From: Geobacter sp. AOG2
GTDB lineage: Bacteria > Desulfobacterota > Desulfuromonadia > Geobacterales > Pseudopelobacteraceae
Assembly (NCBI RefSeq): GCF_019972295.1
Contig: NZ_BLJA01000001.1
Span: 2,732,158-2,796,157 of the forward strand
Direction: 5' to 3'
DNA: 64,000 nucleotides
Made by a program: the position numbers and the translations under genes. The stretch's first letter is position 1; each line of letters opens with the position of its first letter. Below are positions 32,659 through 58,450 of this stretch, piece by piece. The notes beneath the pieces were generated by a model. That model saw only the letters and a list, made by a program, of their open reading frames with translations. It was not told the origin of the DNA and searched no databases.

Positions 32659-34020
<1,362 letters not shown>

Positions 34021-34833: not shown

Positions 34834-35502
34834 TTATGCGCGTGCTTTGATCATCTCCTTGAGCTCGGCGACCTCTGCATAGGTCAGACCACCTTGGACT
34901 GCCTGCATAACCTGGTTGATCTCTTCCGTTGATACCCCATCACGCCGAAGCCACGATGGGAGGAACTGGATCTGCGATGGGTTTGCGGCGGCCTTGTCCA
35001 GCCGGTAAAAGGCGGCCACGTCCTCGGCCTCCTGAAGGAGCGTCGCTGGGTCGGCGGCGTTGATCGCGGCGATGGTGGCCGGACCGATCTTGCCGTCCGC
35101 CGCCACGCCGGCGGCCTCCTGTAGCCACTGGATTCCCCGCGCCGCACCATTAACCACGTGGTCATAGAGCCAGGTAGCCACGGCCTGATCGTTGATCTCG
35201 GACAGGCGGTATTTGTCCCAAAAATTGACTTTGTAGAAATCAACAACATACCGCTGAAGTTGGTTGATCTGTATTAGAAGCGAGTTAAAAAGCTTTACCC
35301 ACTCGTAATATCCACTAGTCCCAAAATGTGGTTGTGCTGTGACTTTACTTTTTATGCCGTCAACAAACCTCCAACCGCTCCATGACGGCCAGAACTTGCG
35401 AGCAATACCCTTATAGGTCTCCCCGCCAGCGTCGGCCGGGTTGTTGGCGTAACCGCCTTCGTTCTCCATTGCCTTTGCGTGTGCTGCGTTGAAATCTGCC
35501 AT
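34834..35502 (-). CDS. Phage endolysin (GH108 lysozyme with peptidoglycan-binding C-terminus)
   Basis: 222 residues. N-terminal GH108 signature AHAKAMENEGGYANNPADAG with catalytic Glu in ENEGGY, and GGETYKGIARKFWP. The C-terminal PG-binding segment is GVAADGKIGPATIAAINAAD. No signal peptide, so it needs the holin upstream in the pathway. It cleaves peptidoglycan glycan strands at lysis. AGGAGG precedes ATG 35502. Confidence 0.92.
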   Translation of the reverse strand: MADFNAAHAKAMENEGGYANNPADAGGETYKGIARKFWPSWSGWRFVDGIKSKVTAQPHFGTSGYYEWVKLFNSLLIQINQLQRYVVDFYKVNFWDKYRLSEINDQAVATWLYDHVVNGAARGIQWLQEAAGVAADGKIGPATIAAINAADPATLLQEAEDVAAFYRLDKAAANPSQIQFLPSWLRRDGVSTEEINQVMQAVQGGLTYAEVAELKEMIKARA

Positions 35503-35513
35503 AGTGTGCCTCC

Positions 35514-38129
35514 TTAAATAATTGTCCCATCCGTCAATCCCGACGGTTTTCCGTTCTTTTTACGCAGGTTGCCGCTGCTGTCGATCCACAGATAATAACT
35601 CCCGAGCTTCAACATCTGTTGCGCCTCTAGGATGGCCGGGGCCTGCTCGGTCGCATAGGCCGAATTGGTTGCCAAACGCTGGATGGCGATCATGAAGGCG
35701 GCATCCACAATGAACATGGTGCCCAGAGGCGAGAAGCCCTGACGCAGATGCAGGCGCTTTGCCTTCTCCACCGCCTCCAGGGCCTTGCCGACCTCACCAC
35801 GGTAGCGCACCGCCAGGTAGGCGGGCATGAGCGTGGGAAAGGCATCGATGTTGCGGCCCCACCAGGAGGGTTGATCCCGGTCCAACTTCTCCCAGCCGTG
35901 GTTCCACTTCACCCGGTAGATCTCCGGGGTGGTGCCCACCGGCACCTGGTACAGCTCGGGGAAGAGCCCGGCCATACATGACGGATACCATTCGCTGCCA
36001 ATCTCATCGGGTATCAGGTTGGTCGTTGACCAGTTCCATTCCTTGCTTGAGGTCTGGTAAAAGAGACCGATCCCCACGGCCAGGGGAGCGAGGAAGGCGG
36101 TATAATAGGCCGTGTCCGCATCGCCCCGCGCCGTCATCTCGGCAAGCAACGCCCGGAGCCCGGCGTACACCTCGCAGTTGTCCATCAGGTAGGACGTGCC
36201 CCAGATGGCATGATCCCCGGTGAAATCGTTCTGAAAGGTTTTGGTCAGTCCGGTGTAGGTCGGGTTGACGTACATCCATTGCGCGCTGCCGTCCACGATG
36301 ATCGCCCCGTAGATCGTGCCCGACGGCGCTGCCGCCCCGGTGGTCCCCGACAGGATGCAGCGGTAGGTGTTACCGTTGGCGGTGTATTCGTCGCCGACCT
36401 TTACCGCGGCCGTCGCCGTCCAGGGTGTATAGCCCTTGACCTGGGTAAGGACGTTGTAATACATCAGGTTCTTCATGGTGGCGTAATTGGTCTCCCCGGC
36501 CGCGTTCGTCGCATCGAACCACGCAAAGTCCATGGTGTTGTTGACATAGGCGCAGGCCAGGGCCACGAACATGGCGGCATAGGAATCATTGGAATCCGGG
36601 TTGCGGTACTGGCTCATATCCGCATGGGTGTCATACCAGTAATATTTCCATCCGGCTGCGTTCGCCCGCAACCATGTCCACGTTATCCCGCTATCCGTGA
36701 ACGTCCCGCTGGTGGCGTTGGTCGATCTGTTGGGCAAGGTGCTGCCACACGCCCGGGTGACCGCCGTTGTCGCCTTCCAGATATCGCCGTTGGCGACGCG
36801 CAGATCTCCGCTTGCAATCATCTCCCCGCCGGTAAAGTTTGGGTAATCGCCCGGATTCTTAAAAAGATACTTCCAGACCGCCGTGCCGTCGCTGATCCCG
36901 GTACCGGTCCAGTTGGGAGCCGTTACCCCCGTGGTGCCAGCCGTGGTGCACTCATAAACACCGTGGTTCGCGATCCGCTTGCTGCCCACAACAACGGCCA
37001 CTCCGCTAAGCCACGGCACGACTATATGCTTTGTCGCACAGTTGAGCAGGGCCTTGATCCTGGAGGGGTTATAGTCGGCAATGGAGAGGAGGCCGCTGAA
37101 AACGAAGTACCAGAGGACACCGTTGTTCTGCCCGTAGCGGAAAGCTCCCTTGTACGGTGAGTCGGCAAAATAAGCCCACTTTACACCGCCATCGTTGATG
37201 ACAAAGACTCCAAGGCCTGCATCCCAAAATGTGGGCATGCCCGTTGGAGCGCTGTCGCCGGTCACGCCGTAGGTGAAGGCCTGGTAGATACGGCCGTTGT
37301 TCTCGCGCAGGTTGCCGTAAAAGATGGTTTCGTTCGCCGTCCACGGGGCGATGGTTGCCGGGATGTCGAAGGTCTGCATGACCGAATCGGCGTTAAACGC
37401 CCCCTGCACCGGCTGCTTTGGTGTGGGAGAGGTCACCCGCCAGTCAAGAACCCCCTGGATGGTATTGACGCCGCTGTTGATGATCCGGGCGATCTTCAGT
37501 TTGTCCACGTACCCGGCCAACTTCCAGTAATTGTCCCCGGATTCGATCACCACACCGCCGGCGGAATCAAGGTAGATATCCATGTACCCCGCTGATTGGA
37601 TGGCGATGATTGCTCCCGTGAACTCGATAAGCCGACCGTCAGAGTAATAACGTCCCGCACCGATGGTGAGTTCCGTTCCTCCGGCCGTCCAGTTCAAGGC
37701 CATGCCGGACAGGACATAAGGATAGAACACATCGGGGTAGACAACGGAATCCGAACCGCTTCCCCCATTGCCGCCGCCTCGCTGTTGTACTACCATCGTC
37801 AATCGATCCAGGGCGGTTTCCACGATCTCCGGGAAATAACCGCCCTGGTTGCGCAGGTCTATCGGTTGCAACTCCGACACCGTACGCACCAATTGCAAGG
37901 TTTCGCCCACAGCCAAGGGAGACTTGAGCGTGATCGTCCCACCGGCGTATCCGGCCGCTCCGGTCAGCGTATAGTTTGCATCCTCGATCAGGACCAGCGA
38001 GGCACCCTGGGAATTGGTTTTGGTCACCGTGATATCGGAGTTGGTCAGGAACCTGAACCCGAAGGAAAATGGCCCTGCCGTGCCCTTGCCGGTGAACGTC
38101 GCTGTGCAGGCCGTGCTGGATACCGTCAT
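35514..38129 (-). CDS. Tail fibre or tail-spike protein (T7 gp17-like N-terminus)
   Basis: 871 residues. The first 120 match the T7 tail-fibre attachment domain by pattern (FSFGFRFLTNSDITVTKT, YTLTGAAGYAGGTITLKSP and the final VETALDRLTMVVQ). Residues 120-440 hold short repeated Trp/Gly segments (GVKWAYFADS, GTAVWKYLFK, GSAQWMYVNP) that look like small carbohydrate-binding repeats. The remainder resembles a glycosidase-like helical domain (WGTSYLMDNCEVYAGLRALL). It should recognise the host surface. Its ATG overlaps the stop of the giant protein by one base. Confidence 0.8.
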   Translation of the reverse strand: MTVSSTACTATFTGKGTAGPFSFGFRFLTNSDITVTKTNSQGASLVLIEDANYTLTGAAGYAGGTITLKSPLAVGETLQLVRTVSELQPIDLRNQGGYFPEIVETALDRLTMVVQQRGGGNGGSGSDSVVYPDVFYPYVLSGMALNWTAGGTELTIGAGRYYSDGRLIEFTGAIIAIQSAGYMDIYLDSAGGVVIESGDNYWKLAGYVDKLKIARIINSGVNTIQGVLDWRVTSPTPKQPVQGAFNADSVMQTFDIPATIAPWTANETIFYGNLRENNGRIYQAFTYGVTGDSAPTGMPTFWDAGLGVFVINDGGVKWAYFADSPYKGAFRYGQNNGVLWYFVFSGLLSIADYNPSRIKALLNCATKHIVVPWLSGVAVVVGSKRIANHGVYECTTAGTTGVTAPNWTGTGISDGTAVWKYLFKNPGDYPNFTGGEMIASGDLRVANGDIWKATTAVTRACGSTLPNRSTNATSGTFTDSGITWTWLRANAAGWKYYWYDTHADMSQYRNPDSNDSYAAMFVALACAYVNNTMDFAWFDATNAAGETNYATMKNLMYYNVLTQVKGYTPWTATAAVKVGDEYTANGNTYRCILSGTTGAAAPSGTIYGAIIVDGSAQWMYVNPTYTGLTKTFQNDFTGDHAIWGTSYLMDNCEVYAGLRALLAEMTARGDADTAYYTAFLAPLAVGIGLFYQTSSKEWNWSTTNLIPDEIGSEWYPSCMAGLFPELYQVPVGTTPEIYRVKWNHGWEKLDRDQPSWWGRNIDAFPTLMPAYLAVRYRGEVGKALEAVEKAKRLHLRQGFSPLGTMFIVDAAFMIAIQRLATNSAYATEQAPAILEAQQMLKLGSYYLWIDSSGNLRKKNGKPSGLTDGTII

Positions 38130-41100
38130 TACTGGTGCCTCCTGTAGGAGAGAATACCCGTAGCCGGGTTCCGGGATATGGCAGGGTTGTAGTCCCCGGT
38201 CAGTAGATCGTGAAGATATTGGGCAGTGATTGTTGCCGGGGCACCTTTGCCGCGGCTGGCGTTCGACATAAACCGTGCAGCTTCACAGAAGGCCTTTTCC
38301 GCTTCGGCTATGGGCTGGCCGGACGCTTCCCCCATGATCTGCCCTTCCACATGGCCGGCCGGTTCACCCACATGTGTGTCCAAGACCATCGGAGGCAGGT
38401 GCGCCAGAAACCATGGCAGGAATGCGTCGCCGGCATCAGGCTGGCGGCTATGCAGAGATTCCTTCAGTATCCCGGCAGCCACGATGCCGAACAGGAAGGC
38501 CTCGACACCGTCGGCAGGGTTTGCGCCAAGCACCCCTTGATTGGCGATACGTCGGCCGACCGATACATCATTGCCGTAGCGAACCAGGGCCGGGGCGATG
38601 AGCATGGCCATCTCCCGCGCTTTCGCGATGAGCGCGCTCGTCGACAGATCGCCGACCCGGCAGGCGTCAGGGATCATGTGGAACGCCTCGTCGGCACGGC
38701 GCACCGCCTCCATACCGTCCATACCCTTGGCCTGGGCTTCCCGGTAGCCGGAGATCCACACCATCATGGCCGCGACCCCGGCGGCCCCTGCCCGGCTTTC
38801 CACAATCCAGCGCTGCACGCCATCCATAACCGCGCCCTTGCCGGTCGCCCCCTCGCGGACCTCGGCCCTGATACGTTCAATTTCGCGGTTCAGGAGCCGC
38901 ATGTGCTCGGAAGCCTCCGCGGCGAAGCGGTGCACGGCCACGGGATTACGCAGGTACTCGAACGCACCGCGCACCACATGGGGCACATCCATATTCTGCA
39001 TGGCCCGGCAGGCGCTGGTCGTGATGTCGGACACGGCGTCGGCCGCCTTCTGGCCGACGATGCGGGCAAAAACGCTGGTGAGCAGCGCCCTGCGGGTATT
39101 CTCGAGCCAACGGGACGAATCGCGGCCCAGGGTGTCCTGTTCGATCATGTAAGCAACCCAGTCCAACATATTCTTGTGGGCCGGGCCCCCCAGTCGGCCC
39201 ACGATTGCCTCCTTCACTACCGCGTTCTTCAACAACCGCTTCGACTGGGCGGCGAATTCCCCGAAGGTGATCTGGATGGCGACCCGGTCCAGATGCCGGA
39301 CCACGACGCTCTCCAGATCAAGGGAGAGGGGCCCCACACCCACCTCTTCCATCCCATCACGGAGGAACATCCGGCCCGGCAGCGCGGCATCGGGTATCGA
39401 ATCCCCATCGCCGGAGTAGTGCGGATCGAATACGATCGGATAATACCCACCCTCCAGGATGCCGTTGGCAATCCTGATCGGCCTGGTTTCAATCCAGACC
39501 GGCTCCGTGCCGGCCTGCCGACGCACGAGCGCTTCCATCTCGGGCTTCAGCGTCTCAATGGCCTTCCAGACACCGTTCACCACCGCGATCTCATCGGCGC
39601 TCAAATGCCCCAGGATTTCCCGGAGCGTGTCCGGGGACAGCCCGGGAGCGCCGCCGCCGTGGGAAAAACGGATACCGCCCCGCATCAGCAGGTCCAGGTT
39701 GCGCTCATTGCCGCAGTTCAGGGCGATGGCCACGATCTCGTCCTTGGTCAGACTGCTTCCCAGTCTCTCCATAAAGATCTTGCCATGGCTCCGGTCCACG
39801 CCTTTACCCTTTATCAGATCGAAGATAGCCGGAAAGATCGACTCCCGGACCCGGTTCAGGTGATTGGCGGCCGTGTCATAAGGCTTCCGGAAGAGGTCGT
39901 GCCACGGCCCGGAAACGGCGTGCCCGTCAATACGCTCGAAAAGGGCTTCAATCCTGATAATGGGGATGTGGATCTCCGGGGCACGCTCCGCGACCCGATC
40001 GAGAAACAACAGAGCGCGATCATCGACGATGCCCGCATTCCCGGCGGGGATTGAGGCATTCAGCTGCTCCACCAGTTGGCGTTTCGCCTCCCCCAGTGCA
40101 ATCCCGGCCCCACCATTGCGAACCGTATTGACCACACCCGCCGCATGTCCGATCATGTGCAGCGTTGCGGAGACGGCCCGCAGTCCGTCCATGGGCAGGT
40201 CCCGGTAACTCACCACCCCGCGCCCCTCGTCCAAAACGGCGGCCGGGACCGGCAGGTCGATCCCCTCGTCCCGCCGCAGGTGGTCAAGAAACCGCCGCAG
40301 GCCTTCCCGCCGGGCGGGTGGTCCGTCAAGCGGCGCGTCGGCCAGGCCGAAGCGGGCAAGGAGCGCGTCTATTTGTTCCCGGAAGGGGCTTCCCGCCAGC
40401 CCCGGCACGACAAGCCCGGCGTCGGCCATGGGGCCGGTCTCCGCCACGGTTACACTGGTCTGATGTACTATCCGGATATTGACATCTCCGAAGGATGGTG
40501 CAATACTTTGAAAGAGGGTGGTAACACCTTCGGGATCGCCTCCAGGCTCACCGGGACTCTTTCTCCCGCTACGCTGCTTGGAGGCTTTCTTTTGCTCATG
40601 TTCTTCCGCATCAGGAAAAAGATCATAGAATTTATTGCCAGCCTTATCCTCTCCGACTTCTACCTGCACCCGATAGAGTTTTCCCGCCATCTCAACATCA
40701 GCATCAATCAGGTGAAATTTGACAATGCCATCCTTTCGTGGATGATCGGGTTGTTCTTCTCTTACATAATCTCCTGACTCAATGATTTCTCTCAGGAGCG
40801 GAACCATCTTCAACTTGTTGGGATCAGCACTGAAATGCTCAACCTCTTTACGTCCCTTCCGGGTAAATGCGATCTCTCCGAGATCATCCCGGTGCGCTGG
40901 CTCTTTAACTTGCAAATGTTCCCGGTACCAATCAACCGCTGCCTTACGCAGCGCCGCGAGATCATCGCCATGATCTCCAAGCTCTTTGCCGGTTAATCTG
41001 ACAGGCGGCTTGGCCGCCTGATACATTTCCCGCACGCCATCAACTGACAATGATCCGGCGTCGGCAGACATCCGCCCGGCCTCCGCCCGGATCGCGTCAA

Positions 41101-44100
41101 CCTCATCCAGGGCCGCAACCGCTTCGCTGTACAGAAAATGATTCAACAACTGGCGGGTCCTGGCTGCCGCCGCTCCGCTGAAATCCCCCCTGCTGAACAG
41201 GTCGAGAGCCTCGCGCGCCGCCGTGCGCCCACCGTCCAGGTACAGCAACGGATCGATAGTTCTGACCGGTTTTGCGCCGACCTGTTCCCGTGCCGCCTGC
41301 CGAAAGACCGCCACCGGCGGGGCGGCAACGTCGTCACCATCCCTGTTCCCCTTTCCGTGCAGAGCCGAAATCTCGGTCCGCAGCACCTCGGCCCATTGGT
41401 CGTTGTGTACAGTTTTCATGGCCTCGCCGGCCATACGGCCATCCCGCAGCAGGTCGCCGTGGCGATCCTTCATGCGTGCCTCGGCCTCGGCGGCAACGGC
41501 ATTGCCCAAGGGCGGTGCCGCCAACATGGCGCGGATCATCTCGTCGGCCGAACTGAAGCCGTAGCGCTCCGCCACCAGTTCCGGGTGCGCCCCGCCCTCA
41601 ACTGCGTAGAGGTAGTCCGTGGCGCTCCCCTTCGGCAGCCGTTTCAGGAATTCCTCGCCGTACATCCGCACCAGAACGGACCGGTCCAGCTTTAATCCCG
41701 GCGTGACGTTCCCGGCAAAGTCCCTGCCCTTGAGGATCTCCTGAAGCGCCCGATATACCGGGCCGGCCTGGGCCTCTGCCGTCGCCTCGTCCCGGAGCGC
41801 GGCCTGTTCGTCCCGCCACCAGGGTTTCCGCTCCCGGCGTTTCTCGGCCATCAACGTGCGAAGCAACCCCTCCTTCGCCAGTTCGCCCGCCTGCCCGGCA
41901 TCCTCCCGGTACCGGTCAAACTCCGCAGGGTGCATCCCGGCATCTCCGGCCGTGGCAAAGAGCGGTTTCATCTCCTGCATGCGGCGTATCCGCCCGATCT
42001 CGGCGTCGGTTGCCGACATGCGGTCGAACACCTCCCGAACCTCCGGGGTCAATCGGACGTTCAGCGCGGTCAGGTCCTTGTAGATGCCGACCATCCAGTC
42101 TTTCATGCGCCGGAACAGGGACCGCGTCTCCACACTCGGGGCGCGGCCCTCCATGATGTACGCCTCGAAGGCCTGGGCGAGCTTCTCGTGGTGTTCCGTC
42201 CGGATATGGGCGCGGGAATCCACTCCGGCAAACGTGAGCAGGGCGGCATAATCCTCCTTGATCTGCCGGGGGGCATCGGGTCGTTCGGCCAGGTCGCCCA
42301 GGATCTCGGTGAAGAAGTGCCCCGATTCGTGGATGAACGTGGAGAGGTTGGCGTCTTTCAGCAGACCGATCTCGAAATTCCGGTCGCTGTCGAAACGGAT
42401 GTAGCCGCGCTTGACAATCGGGCTGTTTTGGTGGAGAATTGCTTCCATAGATCCACTCTGGCCCGATAGACCGCGCAAAGGGGACCCGTTACCGGGTTGA
42501 TTGGTCTGCGCCCTTTCCCAGAGTGGGTTTTTATTTTTAAAAAAGTCATCCCTGGCTACAACGGCAGTCTTGACATCGTAATAATCTCCGTGTGCCGAAG
42601 GGGCAAGCCGGATATAGAGAACCGAATCCTTACTTCCCTTTCTTACCAGTAACAGATTTCCCCTCTGTCCCTTGTAGATGGCATCACAGCCTGAAACAAC
42701 CGCATCAACCATGCTTTCCGCCGAATCATATCCCTCGGCCTGTAACTCTTTTAACCTCTCGGGACGTTCTATGTGGATCTTCCCTTCTTTCTCGTCTCCG
42801 TTGCGCAAAAGTATAGGTGCCGACTGTCTCCCGATAACCGCTCCGATTTCGGGAGTGATTTCACCGAAAACATACCTTCCATCGGGCGCTGGAACAAAAT
42901 CGTGGGATGCCGGGGCATCCGCGCTCTGGAAAAAGTGGCCCACACCCTCTGGCATGCGGCCGCTTTCCACGAATGAAATCCCGTTCTTCATTTCGATGAC
43001 ATCCAGTAACGGGGCACCGAACAGAGAGCCGAACGAGATCATGTTCCGTGCCGCGGCAAGGCTGCCGGGAAGGCCGGGAATAACCAGGACCATCGCCACG
43101 CCGTTGCCCTTGTGGAAGGCGGACATGATTGCCGATGAACCCGATGCGGGGTTGCCGGTCTTCAATTTGGCCATTTCAGACACGGACATGGGGACAAGAG
43201 AAACCGGCCTGGCGCTGGAGTCAACGACAATGACCCCGGAAACGCCTTCACCGTGCGATCGGGCGTACTCGATCACGTGTTCGATATAGGCAAATTGTTC
43301 CGATGTCGGTAACGCGACAATCTCCCTGTCGTAGGTCTTTATTTTCTGCGTGCGCTCTTTGTCCGTCTGCAACGAGCTGAGCGGGATTTTCTCACTCCTG
43401 TTGTCTTTCCCCTCCATCCAGACCGCCCCTTCCGTCTGGCCGACGACAACCATGCCCCTCGACTTGATCCCCGATCCGTCCAGCAACGTGGTCAGCAGCG
43501 AGATTGCACCATGGTCGGGAGGCGACGGTGTGGGGTCGCCGTTCGGGTGATTGTGGGCGAACCAGACTTCGGCGGCGCCGGGGAAATCGTGTACGACCCC
43601 CAACAGGTCCCTCGGCGATATGGAGGTGCTGTCCATCGCGCCGGTGGAATGCTGGATAATCCCGAGCACGTTGCCTTTTGCATCGGTAACGATGGCGATG
43701 GCCGCCTCTTGGGCCCGCTTGGTAAGGGGAAAGGCTATGTGGGCAGCGTCGGCTGGGGTTTTTATCCTCGTAATCGCGGAATGAAGGACACCGGTAACGA
43801 CCTTTTTTATATAATCGTTGTTGGCGGGCGTACCCGATGCGCTGGTTTCTTCCCGGCCGACAGCGTCATTCAAGGCCCGAATATCCGCATCACCGGACGT
43901 TGGCGCCGCACCCCGGCCGCGGGCGGTTGCATCCTCGCCCGGGGCTTCCGAACGGCCCGTGACTTTGCTCGCGGCACCCCGTTTGGAGGATTTCTTCCTC
44001 AATGACGCGCTATCGTCTCCAAACCGCTCCGATTCATTACCGGCCGGCTCGATCAGATGCTTATCCGACTGATACAACTCCCTGACCTCATCTGCGGCAA

Positions 44101-47100
44101 GGCGGTTGACGGCTGACTGGAAAAGTGCATTGACAGCACGTGATTTTGAATCGATAATAAAATCAGTTAGGGCCTGGTGAATCGGAGAGTCCGGTTCGTC
44201 ACTACTGGAAGCGCCCGTCCTCTTTCCAGTGCCAGGCTCTTTTTCTTTTTCAAACTCTGTCAATAACCACTGTTTTCCTTCTCCATCCCAATCCAGACGG
44301 ACGACGGCCCGATGTTGGTCCGATTCGAGACGGATTCTGTTTTTGCCCCTGCTCACAACCGACGTCGTATCTAAAATGTTTTGCAGGTCGCCGGCAACTT
44401 CGGGATGTTTGATCCTGATTTTTGCAAAACCAAACCCATCCTCGTATTCTTTTTCCAGGGAACCTTCTTTCCCCCACACAAGATCGATATCCCCAACCTC
44501 GGGATGATGTAAGGCCGCGATCGCTTCGCCGGTCCGGTACTTCGCCAATCTCTCGACAGCCCTTAGGGCATCATGTTTCAGGTCGCGCCAGACAGGACCG
44601 AAACTCGAAACCCCGTCGGCCCCATATTTTGTCTGCCAGAATTCATGTGCACTTTTATCCCCGTCCAGCGCCGAGTCCATGGGGCGGGCCAACGTGAGTC
44701 CGCGCTTGACATTGTCCTTACCGGGCTGCACAAATTGAATATTGACACCATTAGCAGTATCTGAGATACTTTGATTGAGGGTGGTTTCACCCTCAAGAGA
44801 AGCCGCCGCAACGTCCGACTTGATCTCGGGCCCCCTGTGGCGGTTTCTATTTCGATCATTCTCTTTTGCATCAGGGAAAAGTTCATAGAATTTGTTCCCC
44901 CTGCGGTCTTCTCCGACAAACACCCTTGACCTTCTAATCTCTCCTTCAAGACGTACATCCGCTTCAATGACATGAAACTTGATTATGCCGTCCCGGCGTG
45001 GATGGTCCAAATTCTGAGTCTCTATATAATCCCCGTTCCGGATAATATCGCGCAGGGCGGTAACCATTTTGATTTTTGCCGGGTCGGCCCCAAAATGGCT
45101 AAACTCTTCAATGCCCTTGCGCGTAAAGGCAATGCTGCCCAAGTCGTTACGTTCCACTGGCTTGCCGTGCAGATTGTCCCGATACCATTGGAAAGCGGCT
45201 TTACGAAGCTCCTTGATATCCCCGAACTCTCCCAGTTCCTTGCCCGTAAGCACGGCAACCGGCTTATGCCCGGCCTGATACAGCTTCTTGACATCTTCCG
45301 GGGCCCCAACTATACTTAAACCATTCCCCCCATCGGTTTTGGCCGTTGAGTCCAAGGTGGAAAGAATACTTTCTGCACGCGACGTGGCGGGATATTTAAA
45401 AGAACCCGCTCCCAGGTCAGAACGACTAAACGTAGGTCTGGCTTGCGTAGCGCCGGATTGAGTACTAACCTCGCCGGAGGCATCGGGTTCTCCAATTTTC
45501 CACCCGGTTAATAGCCACGTCTTTTGCTGGCCGTGTTCTTCCAGAGAGAGCACGGCCTCTCTATCTCCATCAACTATGTGAACGTTTTTTTTGCCTTTCA
45601 CAAATTTTGTGACTTTCCCACTAATCACAGTTTGAATAACCTGCCAAACAACATCAGCACCTCGCTTTTCTCCAATATGCCGGATGCCTTTTTTCTCGTC
45701 GCCCCATAAAAAAGACACATCGCTTGAACCACCATATTGTTCAAGATCAGGCCGTAATCCGTAGGCTGTGCCCTCCTCGCTTCCATTCAATATTTTATCT
45801 ATTGCGGACTGAACAGTGCGCACTTTTTCCTGGTGTTCTTCGCTCTGCCACAACTCCTGCTGGCCTTTCAGGCGATCACGCACCTGCCGGTTGTCCATGC
45901 TGTTGAGATCAATCCCCGACCGATCCAAGTGGTCTTTCAACCGTATCAATTCCAGGTGGTCGTCCGATTGCTTCGGTATATCCCCTTCCCGCAAGTGTTC
46001 CAGCATCTGGTCGATTGACGCGTCCGCGCCGATCCGGCCGGCAAGGTCCGAGCCTAGAGGCCGGGCCAACTTGAGATTGTAATGCGAGTACAGCTCATAA
46101 GGATCGACACCGGCACGCTCCCCCATAACCCGGAAAGCGTTGGCAACCAAGCTGGCATTGTGCTCCGCCGTGCTGCGCTCCATACCAATGCCCATCTGCT
46201 GGCTCACCAGATCGTCATAGACCTTGTTGTACGATTCGTTACCCTTGACCGCCTCCTGCGACCGGGCAATCATGTTTTTCAGCGCGTCCACGAAACCGCC
46301 GCTTTTGTGGGCGTTCTCCTTCACCGCCTGAACGCGGGCAGAGGCCTCGCGCTGGGTGCTATCCCCCGGCGACAGCCGGGTATCCTTCACCAATTCGCCG
46401 TACTGTTCCAGCCGGGATAACGTTCCGGTGAACTCCCCGAAGGGAATCACGATGTCGGAGCCGGTGGCGAGCGCCTCACGGTACGCCTCGGGATTGGCGA
46501 GGTTTTCTGCCGCCACCCGGGATGGGTCGAGCCCGGCCGAGCGAAACAAATCGTTCCACCGCTCCACCGGGACATAGGCGTTGTCGATGCCGGCGTGTTC
46601 CGCGGCCACGCCGTCCAGATGCCGCCGCACCAGTTCAGGCGCGCGGTTATTGGCCTTGCTGTCCCGGACGGCCGCGCCGATCCCGGCAAGCGCGTCCGCC
46701 CGCCGCCCGGCCCGGTAGTGGTCGTAGAACGGGACCAGCGACTCCATCAGGCTGTCGCCGACCATCGGTCGCCCGGTCTGGAGCGCGTGATGAGCGCCGA
46801 AGAGGAGCCCCATGGCAAGGTCGTGGGCCATGGTCCCTGGGTCGAGCGGATCGATATCATCGGCCTGCTTGCCATAACCCGCATAGTTCAGCCCCGCCTT
46901 CTCCAGGCCCCGGTCCAGGGCCCCGAAGAGCGGATTGAGCGTCGCCCCCCTGACCAGGCTGCTGGAAAGGGAAGCGCCGCCGAACGGCAGCTTGGTCATG
47001 GCATAGGCGGTCATGCCGGACTTCATGGCCAGGGCCAGAGAGGTATCCGGATCAACGCCCCTGGCGGTCAGACCGTCGTACGTGTCGTTGGTGGCCTGCC

Positions 47101-47806
47101 CCACGACCCCGGCCAAGCCGAACCCGCCGGACAACACCAGGGGGACCAGTTCCTCGACCGAGCGCACCACCCTGCCGCCGAAGGTCTGGGACGGGTCGGC
47201 GGCGGAGCCCTCTTGAATCCGGCTGAACCGGTCATAGAGTTGCGAGGCGAACTCCTTGTAATAGTCGTCGCCGTTGACCGCATCCACCGCAGCCGCCGCC
47301 GGGAAGGCCAGCCTGGTCGCCAGCTTGCCCAGGCCCCCCTGGATGGCCCGGAAGGGCTTGGTCCCGTATTCCCGCCCAAAGTAATTCGCCTCGGCCCGGT
47401 CGCGGTCGGTGCCGAACTGCAACGTGGACCGGGACCCTCCGGGGCTCAAAGGGGCGTCGTTACGGGAACCGAACCCGTTCCGGGCCAACTCCTCGATCTG
47501 CCGGAACGTTCCCACATCGTCATGGGCCAGGGCGGCATGGCCGGGGTTGGCGAAGAACCGGGCGGTAACGGGCGGCATATCCGCCACGGCGGGGTCGAAG
47601 GCCACCGCCCTCCGTTCGGCGTCGGCCCGAAGCTCCGGGGTGGACCACGCGGGCGGGACCTGCGTATGCCGGGACAGCCCCAGGGAGCCGGCGTAGGCGT
47701 CCGCATTGGCGCCCGCAACGTTTTGCAGGTTGAGCAGCGCCAGGGTTTTGTCCCGGTTACCGTCGCTTACCTGATCGGCAAATGCATTCAGATCGTCGAG
47801 AGCCAT
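38129..47806 (-). CDS. Giant polyvalent internal virion protein (3225 residues) with protease and nuclease-like modules
   Basis: One uninterrupted frame of 9.7 kb. Approximate layout: 1-650 helical virion-type region with hydrophobic Gly/Ala stretch (about 200-300); 665-775 nuclease-like module (W and H710 in FLWGDEKKGIRHIGEKRG); 840-985 LPD3-like module (TGKELGEFGD to GNKFYELFPDA); 1045-1180 second nuclease-like module (LVWGKEG, W1111). Next, 1345-1465 RadC-like JAB domain with complete JAMM motif (H1418, H1420, S1428, D1431), 1495-1620 JAB-like copy without ligands, 1655-1775 a further small module, 1815-1910 HESGH metallopeptidase-like (H1826, H1830), 2258-2400 second LPD3-like module, 2430-3225 helical C-terminus. 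Module names are pattern-based. Such proteins are ejected with the DNA in short-tailed phages and can counter host defences. Confidence 0.8.
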   Translation of the reverse strand: MALDDLNAFADQVSDGNRDKTLALLNLQNVAGANADAYAGSLGLSRHTQVPPAWSTPELRADAERRAVAFDPAVADMPPVTARFFANPGHAALAHDDVGTFRQIEELARNGFGSRNDAPLSPGGSRSTLQFGTDRDRAEANYFGREYGTKPFRAIQGGLGKLATRLAFPAAAAVDAVNGDDYYKEFASQLYDRFSRIQEGSAADPSQTFGGRVVRSVEELVPLVLSGGFGLAGVVGQATNDTYDGLTARGVDPDTSLALAMKSGMTAYAMTKLPFGGASLSSSLVRGATLNPLFGALDRGLEKAGLNYAGYGKQADDIDPLDPGTMAHDLAMGLLFGAHHALQTGRPMVGDSLMESLVPFYDHYRAGRRADALAGIGAAVRDSKANNRAPELVRRHLDGVAAEHAGIDNAYVPVERWNDLFRSAGLDPSRVAAENLANPEAYREALATGSDIVIPFGEFTGTLSRLEQYGELVKDTRLSPGDSTQREASARVQAVKENAHKSGGFVDALKNMIARSQEAVKGNESYNKVYDDLVSQQMGIGMERSTAEHNASLVANAFRVMGERAGVDPYELYSHYNLKLARPLGSDLAGRIGADASIDQMLEHLREGDIPKQSDDHLELIRLKDHLDRSGIDLNSMDNRQVRDRLKGQQELWQSEEHQEKVRTVQSAIDKILNGSEEGTAYGLRPDLEQYGGSSDVSFLWGDEKKGIRHIGEKRGADVVWQVIQTVISGKVTKFVKGKKNVHIVDGDREAVLSLEEHGQQKTWLLTGWKIGEPDASGEVSTQSGATQARPTFSRSDLGAGSFKYPATSRAESILSTLDSTAKTDGGNGLSIVGAPEDVKKLYQAGHKPVAVLTGKELGEFGDIKELRKAAFQWYRDNLHGKPVERNDLGSIAFTRKGIEEFSHFGADPAKIKMVTALRDIIRNGDYIETQNLDHPRRDGIIKFHVIEADVRLEGEIRRSRVFVGEDRRGNKFYELFPDAKENDRNRNRHRGPEIKSDVAAASLEGETTLNQSISDTANGVNIQFVQPGKDNVKRGLTLARPMDSALDGDKSAHEFWQTKYGADGVSSFGPVWRDLKHDALRAVERLAKYRTGEAIAALHHPEVGDIDLVWGKEGSLEKEYEDGFGFAKIRIKHPEVAGDLQNILDTTSVVSRGKNRIRLESDQHRAVVRLDWDGEGKQWLLTEFEKEKEPGTGKRTGASSSDEPDSPIHQALTDFIIDSKSRAVNALFQSAVNRLAADEVRELYQSDKHLIEPAGNESERFGDDSASLRKKSSKRGAASKVTGRSEAPGEDATARGRGAAPTSGDADIRALNDAVGREETSASGTPANNDYIKKVVTGVLHSAITRIKTPADAAHIAFPLTKRAQEAAIAIVTDAKGNVLGIIQHSTGAMDSTSISPRDLLGVVHDFPGAAEVWFAHNHPNGDPTPSPPDHGAISLLTTLLDGSGIKSRGMVVVGQTEGAVWMEGKDNRSEKIPLSSLQTDKERTQKIKTYDREIVALPTSEQFAYIEHVIEYARSHGEGVSGVIVVDSSARPVSLVPMSVSEMAKLKTGNPASGSSAIMSAFHKGNGVAMVLVIPGLPGSLAAARNMISFGSLFGAPLLDVIEMKNGISFVESGRMPEGVGHFFQSADAPASHDFVPAPDGRYVFGEITPEIGAVIGRQSAPILLRNGDEKEGKIHIERPERLKELQAEGYDSAESMVDAVVSGCDAIYKGQRGNLLLVRKGSKDSVLYIRLAPSAHGDYYDVKTAVVARDDFFKNKNPLWERAQTNQPGNGSPLRGLSGQSGSMEAILHQNSPIVKRGYIRFDSDRNFEIGLLKDANLSTFIHESGHFFTEILGDLAERPDAPRQIKEDYAALLTFAGVDSRAHIRTEHHEKLAQAFEAYIMEGRAPSVETRSLFRRMKDWMVGIYKDLTALNVRLTPEVREVFDRMSATDAEIGRIRRMQEMKPLFATAGDAGMHPAEFDRYREDAGQAGELAKEGLLRTLMAEKRRERKPWWRDEQAALRDEATAEAQAGPVYRALQEILKGRDFAGNVTPGLKLDRSVLVRMYGEEFLKRLPKGSATDYLYAVEGGAHPELVAERYGFSSADEMIRAMLAAPPLGNAVAAEAEARMKDRHGDLLRDGRMAGEAMKTVHNDQWAEVLRTEISALHGKGNRDGDDVAAPPVAVFRQAAREQVGAKPVRTIDPLLYLDGGRTAAREALDLFSRGDFSGAAAARTRQLLNHFLYSEAVAALDEVDAIRAEAGRMSADAGSLSVDGVREMYQAAKPPVRLTGKELGDHGDDLAALRKAAVDWYREHLQVKEPAHRDDLGEIAFTRKGRKEVEHFSADPNKLKMVPLLREIIESGDYVREEQPDHPRKDGIVKFHLIDADVEMAGKLYRVQVEVGEDKAGNKFYDLFPDAEEHEQKKASKQRSGRKSPGEPGGDPEGVTTLFQSIAPSFGDVNIRIVHQTSVTVAETGPMADAGLVVPGLAGSPFREQIDALLARFGLADAPLDGPPARREGLRRFLDHLRRDEGIDLPVPAAVLDEGRGVVSYRDLPMDGLRAVSATLHMIGHAAGVVNTVRNGGAGIALGEAKRQLVEQLNASIPAGNAGIVDDRALLFLDRVAERAPEIHIPIIRIEALFERIDGHAVSGPWHDLFRKPYDTAANHLNRVRESIFPAIFDLIKGKGVDRSHGKIFMERLGSSLTKDEIVAIALNCGNERNLDLLMRGGIRFSHGGGAPGLSPDTLREILGHLSADEIAVVNGVWKAIETLKPEMEALVRRQAGTEPVWIETRPIRIANGILEGGYYPIVFDPHYSGDGDSIPDAALPGRMFLRDGMEEVGVGPLSLDLESVVVRHLDRVAIQITFGEFAAQSKRLLKNAVVKEAIVGRLGGPAHKNMLDWVAYMIEQDTLGRDSSRWLENTRRALLTSVFARIVGQKAADAVSDITTSACRAMQNMDVPHVVRGAFEYLRNPVAVHRFAAEASEHMRLLNREIERIRAEVREGATGKGAVMDGVQRWIVESRAGAAGVAAMMVWISGYREAQAKGMDGMEAVRRADEAFHMIPDACRVGDLSTSALIAKAREMAMLIAPALVRYGNDVSVGRRIANQGVLGANPADGVEAFLFGIVAAGILKESLHSRQPDAGDAFLPWFLAHLPPMVLDTHVGEPAGHVEGQIMGEASGQPIAEAEKAFCEAARFMSNASRGKGAPATITAQYLHDLLTGDYNPAISRNPATGILSYRRHQ

Positions 47807-49590
47807 TATCTCTTCCCCTTCGGCGTCCGTGCCTGCCGGATACCCTCGGCAAGCTGCGCTTCCGTGGGAGGAACGCCCCCTATGGTGAGTTTCCGCCGCA
47901 CAAAGGCCCGCAGTGCCGCATCGTCCATAATCCGTATCTCCTTGTCGGTGATCGCGCCGGGCGACTTCTCCGTTACCCCGGAGTAGCCGGGCGCTGCGAC
48001 GAAATCGGCGATGCTCTTCGCGATGACCCCGTCCAGGTCCGCCGGTTTGGGGTTGTCGCGCGCCAGACCCAGGTCGCCGATAATGTTTTGCAGGAGCAGC
48101 GCCCGGTTACCCTTTGCCTCGGGGGTCTCCCCGACCAGGCCCCGCAATGCCGGATAGACCGTGCCGTCCGGGTCCAGAGTCCGCAACGACTGAAGCTTCT
48201 CCCGCAGTTTTCCGGCCGCCGACGCGGCGTTCGGGAGATCGGCGTTGGCGCTTGCCACGAACCGTACTGCACCGTCCGTCTGTGCACCGAGCGTCGGCAT
48301 CATCCGCGCCGCGGCCTGCTGAGGGGTGAGACGTCCGTACTTTCCAGCCAGATAGTCATCCTGAAAGTCCTTCAGCCTGCCCAGCTTTACGACATAATCA
48401 GTCATATTCGCCTTCGGTTTCCCTTCGCCGATCTTGAAGTGGCGTTGGGCGTAGCCGACCATATTCTCCACCGCGTCGTCCGGGATGGAGCCGCGCTGTT
48501 CCAGCACCTTGCCGTAGACCTGGGAGTAGGTCCTGCCGTCCAGGATCAGGCCGTTTACCGCGTCGGCCGCCGCCTGGGTCCGCTGTTCGATCCGGGCCCG
48601 GTAGTCCCGCAATTCCTGGTCGATCTTCGCCTTTGCCAACCGGGTGGCTTCGCCGCTCGCCCCGAACGTATCGACCCGCGCGGCGGCGGCAGCCGCATCG
48701 AAAGCATCGTTGGGGGATTGGGGGGCGTATGCGTCCCACACCTTCCGGGCAATGCCGCCGGCCTGGAGGGAATTGTCCGCAAGGGCCATTTGGGGGGCCA
48801 GTTCTTCCCGCTCCCTCTCGTCCAGCACATCGTAGTACGACTGGTACATGCCCACGGCCGCGGCCAGCCTCCCCTGCTCCACCGCACCGTTGTCGGCGGT
48901 CCCGGCCTGCGTCAATAACGACCTGATGGCCGTGGCGTGGAGCCGGGACACCACGGCCTTGACGTATTCCCGTTGCGCCGTCTCCTCCATGCCCTGGTAC
49001 GTCGGGTCCGTGGCGAGCACCCCGCGTATGTTCTTTGCGGCCTCCCGGATGGAGTCCATGGTGGGGTTGTCCGCCACAAACCCGTATTGCTGCGCCGTGA
49101 ACGCCGCCATCTTCTGCTCCGCGGCCTGCACCTCCTGGGCGGCCGAATGGCTCATGACCCGGTATTCCAGGTCGGGCAGATGTTCGTCGAATACCTGCCC
49201 CACGATCCGTTTCTGGCTCTCCGTGGCCGCCTTTTCCAGCCATTCGTCCCTCTTGGCCCGATAGCTGCCGAGGACATGATCCACGAGCGGCACCCTGCCG
49301 CCGTCCCCGGTCTCCACGTCGCGGGCGGCGGTGCCTTGCGTCTTCAGTGCCCCGTCGTCGCCCAGCAGCAGATCGTTCTTCGTCCTCAGCGCATCCGACG
49401 CGACATCGATCCTGAAGTTCTGGTCCACCGTGCGCCGCATCCCGTCGGCCAGATCCCATGCCGACCGGGAGAGCGCCTCCATCCCCCTCGTCAGCCCGGC
49501 CCCATACGCCTCGGCCCCCAGCGGCGTTGCCTGGGGAGTGGCCACCGGCCCGATGGGGACCGTGGGATTATCGTATCTCGGCACCTGCAT
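47806..49590 (-). CDS. Internal virion protein (ejection protein)
   Basis: 594 residues, mostly helical and charged, without membrane segments. N-terminal PRYDNPTVPIGPVATPQATP is a Pro-rich leader common in podovirus internal core proteins; long heptad-like stretches follow (YRAKRDEWLEKAATESQKR). Its stop overlaps the giant protein ATG (TAATG), and its ATG overlaps the small gene upstream. By position it is the counterpart of T7 gp15. No enzymatic motif is seen. Confidence 0.75.
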   Translation of the reverse strand: MQVPRYDNPTVPIGPVATPQATPLGAEAYGAGLTRGMEALSRSAWDLADGMRRTVDQNFRIDVASDALRTKNDLLLGDDGALKTQGTAARDVETGDGGRVPLVDHVLGSYRAKRDEWLEKAATESQKRIVGQVFDEHLPDLEYRVMSHSAAQEVQAAEQKMAAFTAQQYGFVADNPTMDSIREAAKNIRGVLATDPTYQGMEETAQREYVKAVVSRLHATAIRSLLTQAGTADNGAVEQGRLAAAVGMYQSYYDVLDEREREELAPQMALADNSLQAGGIARKVWDAYAPQSPNDAFDAAAAAARVDTFGASGEATRLAKAKIDQELRDYRARIEQRTQAAADAVNGLILDGRTYSQVYGKVLEQRGSIPDDAVENMVGYAQRHFKIGEGKPKANMTDYVVKLGRLKDFQDDYLAGKYGRLTPQQAAARMMPTLGAQTDGAVRFVASANADLPNAASAAGKLREKLQSLRTLDPDGTVYPALRGLVGETPEAKGNRALLLQNIIGDLGLARDNPKPADLDGVIAKSIADFVAAPGYSGVTEKSPGAITDKEIRIMDDAALRAFVRRKLTIGGVPPTEAQLAEGIRQARTPKGKR

Positions 49591-50492: not shown

Positions 50493-50978
50493 TTACTGCA
50501 TCTTCGATCCGTAATACCCCGCGCTCCCCACCCCGCCCAGGATCGAACCCGCCGCGCCGAAATATCCGGCGGTCCGGGCCGCGTTTCCCCGGAACTGCTC
50601 CAGCCCGGCCTGGGCCTTGTAGCCCGCCGCCTGGCGCTGGGCGTTGTTGACGACCCTGAGGGCGTCCAGCTCGCCGACGCCGGCCGTTTCGGTCTGGAGG
50701 TCCAGGGGGGTGCCGGTGGAGGCGTCCACCCCTCCCGCCGACATGGCCGCGTTCTGGCGGGCGATCACCTGACGCGCCTTGGTACGCTGCTCGGCAGCGG
50801 CTATCGCGCCCCGCTCGTTGGCGTCACGGGCCGCGTTCTCCGCCACCTTGGCGTTGTAGTCTGCAACCTCTTTGGCGTTCTCCCCGGCTGCGACCGAACT
50901 GTACGCCGCCGTGGCCGTGGAGGCCGCCGTGGCCACCGCCGCCACGATTGCCGCCGTTGTGGCCGATATAGATGCCAT
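50493..50978 (-). CDS. T7 gp14-like virion core protein
   Basis: 161 residues. N-terminal Ala/Thr-rich hydrophobic stretch, central helical region with VADYNAKVAENAARDANERG and QARQVIARQNAAMSAGGVDA-like segments, and a Gly-rich end (YFGAAGSILGGVGSAGYYG). This pattern is widespread in podovirus internal core proteins that form the ejection channel. It starts just after the GNAT gene stop. Confidence 0.75.
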   Translation of the reverse strand: MASISATTAAIVAAVATAASTATAAYSSVAAGENAKEVADYNAKVAENAARDANERGAIAAAEQRTKARQVIARQNAAMSAGGVDASTGTPLDLQTETAGVGELDALRVVNNAQRQAAGYKAQAGLEQFRGNAARTAGYFGAAGSILGGVGSAGYYGSKMQ

Positions 50979-50979: not shown

Positions 50980-51429
50980 TCACGCCTCCTTGCAGGTAAT
51001 CAGCGCACAGGTCCTGTAGCCCATGCGGTTGTAAAATTTTTCCACCCTGGCCGTTTCGTAGCCGGAGGCCGCTGCGACCAGGAGTTTCCTGGCCCCCCTG
51101 GGCACGGCCCACGTCTCCATGGCCCGCATGAGCTGCCGGGCCAGGGGGGTGGCGCGGTAATCGGCGCGGACCCAGAACATCAGCTCGGACATCTCCAGAG
51201 TGGGCGTGAACCATTGGGGGTGGATCATGCCCATGAACAGCCCGACCACCTCCCCGTCCACCGCCTCGAAGAAACAGCCCAGGCCGGGCAGGTCCAGATA
51301 GATCCCCAACATGCGCCGCGTGTGCTCCCGGTCGAACTCCACCCCCGCATAGTTGGGCAGGTCGGCCAGGACATCGGCGGCCACATTCGTCAGTATGTCG
51401 ATATGTTCGCTACTAGCCTTGATAATCAT
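50980..51429 (-). CDS. GNAT-type acetyltransferase-like phage protein
   Basis: 149 residues with GNAT landmarks: AVDGEVVGLFMGMI (beta 3-4), VRADYRATPLARQLMRAMETWA (the region of the acetyl-CoA loop, without a clear QxxGxG/A) and FYNRMGYRTCAL. It overlaps the gp13-like gene by 17 bases. A phage structural region with GNAT folds is typical of gp13-type virion proteins, and catalysis is uncertain. Confidence 0.75.
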   Translation of the reverse strand: MIIKASSEHIDILTNVAADVLADLPNYAGVEFDREHTRRMLGIYLDLPGLGCFFEAVDGEVVGLFMGMIHPQWFTPTLEMSELMFWVRADYRATPLARQLMRAMETWAVPRGARKLLVAAASGYETARVEKFYNRMGYRTCALITCKEA

Positions 51430-51910
51430 CGCACCCCCCCATGCCGAAGCGAAAGAACGGCAGCCCGAACGGCCCGAGCTTTTCAGCCGCCGGGTCTATC
51501 TCGAACCCGAGCCAGGTCAGCCACTGGATCGCCCGCCGGTTCCGCGCATCCACATAATTCTCAAGCCGCTCGAAGCCCTCCCGCATCTCCGCGACGCACC
51601 CGCGGCAGCGGCGGAGGAACACGAAGGGATGCACGTCCAGGTGGTGCGTCCCCACCATCCAGGGTCGCCCCACGTTGCCCAGGATGGACGACGGCACCAC
51701 GCCGAACATGCAGACCGGCACCCCGTCCATGAGACCGGTCCGGGCCATCCTCGAATACTCCAGGCCGTAGCGCAGGCACTCCAGGGGGGTCACGCAGCCG
51801 ACCCCCCACAGCTCCGCCCGGTCGGCGTCGCGCACGTGGGCCGCTATGGTCGGAATATGGCCGTCTGTGGCCGGGACGATCTCAGGCTTTGGCTTTGACA
51901 TGGGTCGCAT
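51413..51910 (-). CDS. T7 gp13-like internal virion protein (DUF2833)
   Basis: 165 residues; ATG 51910 or ATG 51901, with GGAGGTG just upstream. The pattern HVRDADRAELWGVG, VCMFGVVPSSILGNVGRPWMVGT and NRRAIQWLTWLGFEID fits the DUF2833/gp13 family, itself a GNAT-like fold. T7 gp13 is needed for virion assembly. It is followed by a second GNAT-like gene that overlaps it. Confidence 0.8.
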   Translation of the reverse strand: MRPMSKPKPEIVPATDGHIPTIAAHVRDADRAELWGVGCVTPLECLRYGLEYSRMARTGLMDGVPVCMFGVVPSSILGNVGRPWMVGTHHLDVHPFVFLRRCRGCVAEMREGFERLENYVDARNRRAIQWLTWLGFEIDPAAEKLGPFGLPFFRFGMGGCDDYQG

Positions 51911-55639: not shown

Positions 55640-55660
55640 GGGGGCTCCTTTAAAGGCTCT

Positions 55661-57342: not shown

Positions 57343-57401
57343 GGTTGGTCCTTTCATTTTGAGGAATGGTGGTGCAGATTGGTTGCTTTTCTGACTATTT
57401 T

Positions 57402-57490: not shown

Positions 57491-57516
57491 AACCGGACCC
57501 CCTTAAAACCAAAACC

Positions 57517-57813: not shown

Positions 57814-57816
57814 GGC

Positions 57817-58446: not shown

Positions 58447-58450
58447 ACCC

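Follow-up and report, generated by a model that had tools for sequence, protein, structure and literature searches.

Which kind of protein is encoded by the giant reading frame of 3225 codons that runs without interruption on the minus strand from 47806 to 38129 of a 64,000-nucleotide stretch of the Geobacter sp. AOG2 genome (contig NZ_BLJA01000001.1, positions 2,732,158 to 2,796,157; the whole stretch is referred to as the window), and which kind of element carries it? The account that we consider the best, and probable, is that of a modular ejection protein of a podovirus-type particle, whose gene cluster seems to be inherited at one chromosomal locus and whose particle is perhaps domesticated and similar to a gene transfer agent (GTA). 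A preliminary description of the stretch had proposed a multi-module polyvalent protein encoded by a single intact 9.7 kb frame among internal-virion genes; the intact frame was confirmed, and domain matches together with the gene context support the modular nature.

On the basis of sequence similarity, the giant protein is a phage polyvalent protein of the family of BPP-1 Bbp10 (PHROG 9880) and thus a member of a described kind. The match to PHROG 9880 has an E-value of 1e-227, and homology to BPP-1 extends over blocks of the conserved part termed carrier below (E 1.5e-64 and 8e-31). Pfam matches above the curated cut-offs were obtained for LPD22, PBECR1, LPD3 (twice) and RadC, while a fifth match, NDUFA12, lies under its cut-off; LPD3 was matched in none of 14 control genomes. 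Several disparate domains, including a HExxH site in addition to those recognised by Pfam, are therefore combined in one polypeptide, and its surroundings are late/virion genes of a phage type. At least two confident enzymatic profile matches had been named as supporting evidence in the preliminary description, and both PBECR1 and RadC are confident, the HExxH site being conserved; the opposite outcome, one continuous structural fold, was not seen, the two modelled parts (residues 1315–1790 and the C-terminal carrier) forming separate folds. The modules are arranged as follows.

38129–47806, minus strand: whole polyvalent ejection-type protein, 3225 residues, frame intact
47477–47749, minus strand: LPD22 domain (residues 20–110), part of the N-terminal carrier; Pfam match at 28–110, E 5.7e-10
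45872–47431, minus strand: N-terminal carrier region (126–645), detected by the local profiles NchasA and NchasB; GC content at third codon positions (GC3) 0.82
45461–45835, minus strand: first PBECR1-type RNase-like domain (658–782), from an iterated local profile and hhalign; GC3 0.45 for residues 646–790
44870–45262, minus strand: LPD3 copy 1 (849–979); Pfam and local profile
44210–44608, minus strand: second PBECR1 RNase-like domain (1067–1199); Pfam match at 1099–1190, E 3.9e-9
43385–43825, minus strand: RadC-type JAB/JAMM domain (1328–1474) with E, HxH, S and D; Pfam, fold and motif
42971–43381, minus strand: degenerate JAB-like domain, named JAB2 here (1476–1612), from the strand/helix order of the model; motif absent
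42443–42889, minus strand: probable third BECR-like RNase/toxin domain, named BECRc here (1640–1788); weak Pfam, fold and profile matches
41057–42424, minus strand: HExxH zincin-type metallopeptidase and following region (1795–2250), part of the carrier; Bbp10 is a CLCA_X seed
40610–41008, minus strand: LPD3 copy 2 (2267–2399), in the minor bay between peptidase and C-terminal carrier; Pfam and local profile
38132–40402, minus strand: C-terminal, almost all-helical carrier (2469–3225); model with fold matches by VIA-align 2 and in BFVD

The exceptional size attributed to the protein did not hold up, since it is large yet unexceptional in its family. The relatives comprise the best 80 of 104 genome-contig loci and the best 80 of at least 589 viral-contig loci plus earlier loci, some of which repeat one contig. 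A frame with the peptidase is present in 177 of 179 loci and complete in 146, with a median length of 2226 and a maximum of 4254 residues from stop to stop; six of the 146 complete relatives exceed 3225 residues on this stop-to-stop basis, and five exceed the corresponding frame of the window (3325).

Comparison with these relatives shows a conserved carrier, consisting of an LPD22-containing N-terminal part, a zincin-type metallopeptidase and a long, predicted helical C-terminal part, into which cargo is inserted mainly just before the peptidase. In pairwise alignments, residues 1–112, 200–640, 1790–2250 and 2469–3225 are widely shared, and 640–1790 and 2250–2469 are found only with some relatives. 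Among 167 distinct frames (the window included; some end at a contig edge, and the counts are lower bounds) LPD22 occurs in 131 and the N-terminal region in 129 (NchasA) and 138 (NchasB), compared with 13 for LPD3, 10 for PBECR1, 8 for JAB2, 7 for RadC and 5 for BECRc. The main bay, between the N-terminal region and the peptidase, ranges from 11 to 2305 residues (median 346, 129 loci; 1190 in the window), so that the carrier also occurs with almost no cargo. The minor bay, between peptidase and C-terminal carrier, is mostly short, with a median of 8 and a maximum of 344 residues in 140 loci (219 in the window). The order PBECR1-LPD3-PBECR1-RadC-JAB2-BECRc of the main bay in the window is shuffled in relatives, for example to PBECR1-BECRc-RadC-JAB2 (L215) and LPD3-RadC-JAB2-BECRc (L216). 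From 114 non-redundant bays of at least 90 residues, 103 were scanned with Pfam, the 9 longest being left out for their size, and L102 and L168 although nothing required it. The commonest cargo was ART-PolyVal (25 bays), followed by LPD3 (11), Acetyltransf_7 of the GNAT type (9), PBECR1 and PBECR3 (7 each), MuF_C and PBECR5 (6 each), RadC and GGDEF (3 each) and rarer ones including Zeta toxin. The carrier parts are split over at least two frames in 10 of 259 loci, several of which resemble assembly frameshifts. In one of the split loci the N-terminal part stands alone (L241:1973–4453) and is followed by RadC, peptidase and C-terminal part (7197–16373); this locus, with a wide gap between the parts, is the only one to suggest separate genes, and we do not use it as an argument.

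The nuclease-like modules which the preliminary description had placed at about 665–775 and 1045–1180 correspond to two PBECR1 copies, the first of them divergent. Only the second is matched by Pfam directly, and the first is connected to it by the iterated local profile (domain E 4.3e-25 at 658–782, a flattering value because the copy was among the searched sequences) and by hhalign of this copy alone against other PBECR1 sequences (98.7%). The WxLT motif is found in 41 of 41 PBECR1 sequences and a loose helix pattern in 40 of them; in the first copy of the window the His is placed earlier in the helix, and the H and T of BECR domains are retained. The two LPD3-like modules were likewise confirmed, with a Pfam E-value of 1.1e-48 for the whole protein. 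An assignment of LPD3 as a further BECR nuclease was rejected, as hhalign against PBECR1 and BECRc gave less than 1% and the profile search of the PDB nothing useful.

The module described as a JAMM protease is indeed a JAMM domain, but one of the RadC type, a group without established protease activity. RadC is matched by Pfam at residues 1349–1459 (E 1.1e-12), and the model of residues 1315–1790 (34 sequences; predicted local distance difference test score, pLDDT, 82.6; predicted template modelling score, pTM, 0.65) superimposes onto the RadC structure 2qlc with Z 14.5 and a root-mean-square deviation (rmsd) of 2.1 for 121 aligned residues, other JAMM proteins following at Z 8–9. The residues E, HxH, S and D of the metal site are all invariant in 7 of 7 sequences, and the HxH..S/T..D pattern is present in 28 of 28. 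The adjacent JAB2 has the same strand-helix order as the RadC domain in the model, and the HxH..S/T..D motif in none of 28 sequences. It follows RadC in 7 of 7 frames; one 39-residue JAB2 piece occurs without RadC in L135. A sequence relation between RadC and JAB2 found no support in hhalign (0.4%), their likeness consisting of predicted secondary structure and order alone. In a separate set of 33 loci retrieved with a RadC-JAB2 query (L221–L253, some repeating contigs) JAB2 follows RadC throughout, which is partly so by construction, and 18 of these pairs lie in peptidase-bearing frames.

The further small module noted at 1655–1775 is present and is a probable third BECR-like domain, as suggested by weak sequence matches and by the predicted structure. 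Weak Pfam matches to PBECR1, PBECR3 and Ntox33 (E 0.013–0.11) were obtained, each in one of five relatives; the top PDB match of the BECRc sequence profile is chain 7m5f_C of the toxin CdiA (E 0.025), and the modelled module aligns to the same chain with Z 7.5 and an rmsd of 4.1 over 110 of 119 residues. Comparison with PBECR1 by hhalign yielded 2.3% or 18.3%, depending on the direction, and a Foldseek search with the 1315–1790 model listed the RNase toxins BrnT (E 0.29) and HigB2 (E 1.5) far down. Several points weigh against the assignment: the structural alignment covers the range 266–438, which starts in JAB2, and its Z-score is below the caution line of the tool and may be due to chance; the profile match to CdiA spans only about 52 positions; and the copy of the window has no Pfam match.

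The HESGH metallopeptidase-like site also proved real. It is located at residues 1826–1830; all 16 aligned relatives have the same H, E and H. HExxH is found in 159 of the 167 frames, 144 of which also carry a downstream helix pattern resembling HE..A....E; the 8 frames in which it was not found, one of them (L051) the second half of a split frame, count against the account favoured here. Residues 700–1000 of BPP-1 Bbp10 serve as a seed of the CLCA_X zincin family in the section of PMC3650047 that treats it. The consensus of this family is HExxHxxxD, and the window and BPP-1 rows read HExxHxxxE, though Bbp10 itself is a family seed. Iyer et al. proposed, in a passage of PMC5512222, that such peptidases free the other domains of polyvalent proteins; by analogy, the location of the peptidase directly behind the main bay fits this release idea.

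The cargo is a mosaic, as judged from a lower GC3, unequal synonymous divergence, and exchange and reordering among relatives. GC3 amounts to 0.77–0.82 in the four carrier parts, 0.72–0.74 in RadC and JAB2 and 0.44–0.55 in PBECR1, LPD3 and BECRc. The synonymous divergence (dS) from the counterpart in the genus member G005 is 0.35–0.48 for LPD22, N-terminal region and peptidase, 0.66 for the C-terminal part, 0.31 for PBECR1, 0.84 for RadC and 0.79 for JAB2; BECRc is 75% identical at the protein level with saturated synonymous sites. Such unequal values between modules of one gene pair suggest that the modules have different histories. The ratio of nonsynonymous to synonymous divergence (dN/dS), calculated by an in-house script of the Nei-Gojobori type, is 0.18–0.44 wherever computable; no usable ratio was obtained for the first PBECR1 copy or for either LPD3 copy, for lack of an aligned counterpart or because of saturated synonymous sites. 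A purely structural core protein with the insertions as inert spacers might be imagined in view of bays that range from nearly empty to 2305 residues, but the conserved catalytic motifs (the JAMM pattern as well as the H and T of the BECR domains) and the purifying selection on RadC, JAB2 and PBECR1 render this scenario hardly credible.

The gene neighbourhood provides the link to a particle. On the minus strand, the portal gene is followed by those of the protease, the capsid protein, tail tubular proteins A and B, two internal virion proteins flanking a GNAT gene, a 222-residue frame, a 594-residue protein, the giant, the tail fibre and a GH108 endolysin, with several unnamed small frames.

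60619–62409, minus strand: portal (head-tail adaptor)
56350–57357, minus strand: major capsid protein (PHROG), 96–97% identical in two sister species
54749–55678, minus strand: tail protein of the tail tubular A type
52064–54745, minus strand: tail protein of the tail tubular B or nozzle type
51413–51910, minus strand: internal virion protein (phrog_308)
50493–50978, minus strand: internal virion protein (phrog_418)
47806–49590, minus strand: 594-residue protein in the position of T7 gp15 or the structural lysozyme; no lysozyme domain found
35514–38129, minus strand: tail fibre
34834–35502, minus strand: GH108 endolysin
32659–34020, plus strand: host gene of a class II tRNA ligase, regarded as asnS; flanks the locus and is conserved

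As far as annotated, the gene order matches in BPP-1, UFJF_PfDIW6, Carin1, AF, CP2 and Jess A, and it resembles T7 genes 13–17. The 594-residue protein has no PHROG match at 0.01 and no Pfam match above cut-off, and is unlike the annotated lysozyme-type proteins of the relatives.

The preliminary description had put the giant in the place of T7 gp16. Its place in the gene order indeed corresponds, while similarity in sequence was not found: homology to gp16 was rejected after blastp (best E 0.52), hmmsearch (no match) and hhalign (0.3%), and the N-terminal lytic transglycosylase typical of gp16 has no Pfam match in the giant at E ≤ 1. The C-terminal carrier was modelled over 757 residues from 109 sequences (pLDDT 80.2, pTM 0.83) and is almost entirely helical. 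In VIA-align 2, the first of 687 chains is 8vb2_A of the phiM1 ejectosome (Z 5.7, 215 aligned residues, rmsd 5.3) and the second is 9vvp_W of the E1004 core proteins (Z 5.5, 195 aligned), the next chain dropping to 4.6. In the entry 9vvp, chain L and three other chains are a T7 gp16 homologue, and the residue numbering suggests that chain W is among the three. The likeness to gp16, drawn from gene position and this weak fold match, is itself a weak one, and two points speak against it: a Z-score of 5.7 falls within the range that the tool calls common for helical proteins, and Foldseek against the PDB gave a best E of 0.46 with no match at E ≤ 0.001. Sequence searches likewise yielded no convincing solved relative of the carrier. 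In BFVD, the C-terminal carrier gave 62 matches at E ≤ 0.001, whose TM-scores, relative to the query, reach 0.76; among the best 50 of these 62, 12 are named polyvalent, ART, MuF or nuclease and many are nameless, and their viruses are labelled as podo-, myo- and siphoviruses. No Pfam family is matched, though the fold is common to these phage proteins, and its occurrence across tail types leads us to suggest that the modelled C-terminal part may serve phage polyvalent proteins in general as a carrier.

In the proposed scenario, the head would contain the carrier along with the core proteins, and the carrier would exit together with the DNA. The peptidase would then cut the chain and release the cargo in the recipient, where the two or three BECR-type RNase-like domains and RadC/JAB might act on RNA or nucleotides early after entry. 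A point against this scenario is that particle location, injection, cleavage and catalysis of the giant's family are deduced here from genes alone. Few searches of one open-access library turned up no usable virion proteomics of the relatives, which does not imply absence in print, and the giant itself does not appear among proteomic data in the parts of PMC8951688 and PMC11440229 consulted. One list in PMC8951688 gives the relative g16 as unknown, possibly structural, and a section of PMC11440229 describes the carin-1 ejectosome as visible in particle images; we equate this carin-1 with Carin1, the phage whose gp32 is related to the giant. The cargo domains might also protect the particle or its host from competing phages instead of attacking the recipient cell, and superinfection control is raised for such domains by Iyer et al. 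in part of PMC5512222; we consider this unlikely, as the position among virion genes and the fusion to an ejection-type carrier point to delivery, but the present data would fit either role. An anti-defence or host-takeover role, as considered in the preliminary description, would be conceivable as well, with defence systems or rival elements as possible targets of the cargo.

The second part of the question concerns the element as a whole, for which a functional temperate phage would be the conventional answer. No tyrosine integrase was detected within about 172 kb of the cluster, the nearest of five PF00589 matches in the genome lying there (serine integrases were not sought). When BPP-1 proteins were compared with about 83 kb of context, 5 of 18 matched (portal, Bbp12, protease, Bbp9 and Bbp16), and integrase, repressor, terminase and replication proteins did not; Bbp11 is likewise unmatched though its place is filled, and missing matches are therefore weak evidence of absence. 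The next genes beyond the cluster are host-like (OmpA-type barrel, HDOD, response regulator, FG-GAP, NmrA and phospholipase A1). The Pfam profile PF03237 for terminases had no match in the genome of the window (G000), and this blank from a single profile proves little, since a BPP-1-type TerL is present at G000:C1:3857280–3858809, about 1.06 Mb off among host-like genes, beside a TerS (PF03592; the pair spans G000:C1:3856652–3858812, or L306:8653–10813). TerL is a single-copy gene in all six genomes of the genus, 86–91% identical in the five relatives; the other 33 of 39 scanned genomes gave one clear (60%) and one marginal match, and G036, which belongs to another genus, has a BPP-1-type TerL some 16 kb away from its own giant. 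This TerS/TerL pair would be compatible with a functional temperate phage whose remaining genes were moved elsewhere by a recent rearrangement in this strain, as would the arrangement in G004, where TerL and the portal gene that remains share a strand and are separated by about 12 kb. A recent event is at odds with the separation of terminase and cluster throughout the six genus genomes (by 12 kb to 1.06 Mb, or by location on different contigs), and neither the distant PF00589 match nor the unmatched replication proteins support a complete phage; we regard this explanation as quite improbable.

Several features point instead to an inherited locus. The cluster or its remnants lie beside asnS in all six genus genomes, whole in three and as remnants in three. 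In G005 and G002, it lies next to four conserved genes, among them asnS and that of a pseudouridine synthase, and 17 of 20 cluster frames of the window are matched in the same order, the exceptions being 57503–58426, 58451–59674 and the GNAT gene. G001 and G004 (drafts of 88% and 83% completeness) have partial clusters beside the same asnS, and G003 (one contig) retains there only pieces of the portal (28–221) and endolysin (87–222) and the small frames 62428 and 34022. In a wider set, the giant's carrier is present in 14 of 196 relatives (the window's own counted) and the capsid of the window in 3 of 10 genomes tested, its own included. The dS values to G005 are 0.13–0.73 for the cluster genes (endolysin 1.11) and 0.23–0.53 for the flanking host genes, and dN/dS to G005 and G002 is 0.08–0.46 for 17 of 18 cluster pieces. 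The exception, the conserved frame 62428–62853 next to the portal, has ratios of 1.16, 1.20 and 1.37 with 20/14/11 substitutions over the codon positions; this spread makes the frame doubtful (a wrong frame or unusual evolution), and we make no claim of selection for it.

The absence of a detected tyrosine integrase or BPP-1-type terminase nearby, together with one locus across the genus, implies that the payload of a prophage may be the wrong frame for the giant. The element does not resemble a prophage of recent origin, and from the compared sequences the gene cluster appears to be inherited from a common ancestor; as the simplest account, an old podovirus head-tail-ejection cluster was fixed in the genus ancestor, kept under selection in three species and partly lost in three. 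At least within this genus, the head-tail cluster would thus be passed on at a single chromosomal locus, with the presumed terminase genes apart, and the particle may be domesticated and GTA-like instead of that of an active prophage. GTAs such as RcGTA have a head-tail cluster at a shared host locus, dispersed components and purifying selection. The shared host locus (vertical descent being less clear for G001 and G004), no integrase found nearby in limited searches, the dispersed presumed components and the purifying selection of the present cluster are similar, and make a GTA-like or otherwise domesticated particle plausible on genomic grounds; unlike RcGTA, the cluster has suffered erosion in three of the six genus members, includes a giant cargo-bearing ejection protein and has so far been traced as genes alone. 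Few searches of one open-access library for a gene transfer agent in Geobacter with a terminase retrieved nothing related.

Several observations weigh against this interpretation. Cluster remnants and TerL (62428–62853 aside) differ from those of G001 and G004 by dS values of 0.59–1.32, above the host flanks of G001 (0.28–0.53) and asnS of G004 (0.37), a pattern more easily explained by recombination with related phages, or by faster change, than by vertical descent alone. In G003, dS is 1.04 for the endolysin piece, 0.20 for the portal and 0.38 for TerL. TerL has dN/dS values of 0.13–0.17 in five comparisons, including that with G003, which has lost the capsid gene, and TerL may accordingly serve something else. 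Moreover, an old prophage in slow decay would likewise explain the erosion in three of six genus members. That the genus carries such an ancestral prophage in fixed form, now decaying, with the giant as an ordinary polyvalent payload losing its function, is a possibility that we take seriously while doubting it: the partial deletion at the same locus in G001, G003 and G004 and the failure to detect a tyrosine integrase or a BPP-1-type terminase nearby speak for it, but the frames retained in order in G005 and G002, their low dN/dS and mostly host-like synonymous distances, and cargo exchanged while the open frames stayed intact speak against it. Selection on intact genes argues for a function. 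A more specific version of the domesticated particle, in which the genus keeps the podovirus head-tail-ejection machine as a GTA-like or killer particle and the giant is a swappable, self-cleaving carrier of a multi-nuclease warhead that poisons or prepares the recipient, is in our view speculative and rather unlikely in its entirety.

The comparison with known systems places the giant closest to BPP-1 Bbp10, with which it shares the carrier blocks, the place between the structural lysozyme and tail fibre genes and a PBECR1 in the bay. In contrast, the Bbp10 frame has 2052 residues, RadC, LPD3 and BECRc were not detected in it, and BPP-1 possesses integrase and terminase genes, none of which were found near the present cluster. 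As in the polyvalent proteins described in the consulted sections of Iyer et al. (PMC5512222), several disparate domains are combined, a zincin-type peptidase, PBECR1, LPD3, LPD22 and RadC among them, in a late-gene context. One section there places RadC only in polyvalent proteins of conjugative elements, another mentions prophages; the RadC of the giant sits, unlike that placement, in a podovirus-type carrier. T7 gp16 and the tetrameric ejection protein of phiM1 share the gene position and the weak match of the C-terminal helical fold, and the phiM1 protein also has an enzymatic domain inserted in its hub, according to a section of PMC11440229; gp16 differs by the lack of significant sequence similarity, by its transglycosylase domain, not found in the giant, and by its other cargo. 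The virion RNA polymerase gp50 of N4, as described in part of PMC12633501, has about 3500 residues in loosely linked domains and is ejected with two other ejection proteins; it is likened to the giant by this description, its cargo being an RNA polymerase.

As far as limited literature searching goes, four features are new: the explicit description of carrier and bays, a RadC-JAB2 pair on a carrier of the ejection type, a third module resembling CdiA, and a cluster that occupies a shared locus. The protein illustrates how phage polyvalent proteins can be built, with enzyme modules exchanged in a bay that lies ahead of the peptidase of a conserved carrier, and the fusion of RadC to an ejection-type carrier bears on the question of RadC function. 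If the cluster is domesticated, bacteria have kept a particle that may deliver an enzyme-laden protein.

Some minor observations concern the other cluster genes. Between capsid and protease, about 2.3 kb (57358–59692) hold two long frames without PHROG match or counterpart in G005 or G002, the genes there standing close together. The tail fibre (35514–38129) and tail tubular B (52064–54745) both match phrog_20269 and phrog_20658, which hints at a shared inserted domain. The GNAT acetyltransferase gene between the internal virion genes (50980–51429) has a companion of the same type behind TerL (L306:11355–11972), and BPP-1 also has one beside its terminase.

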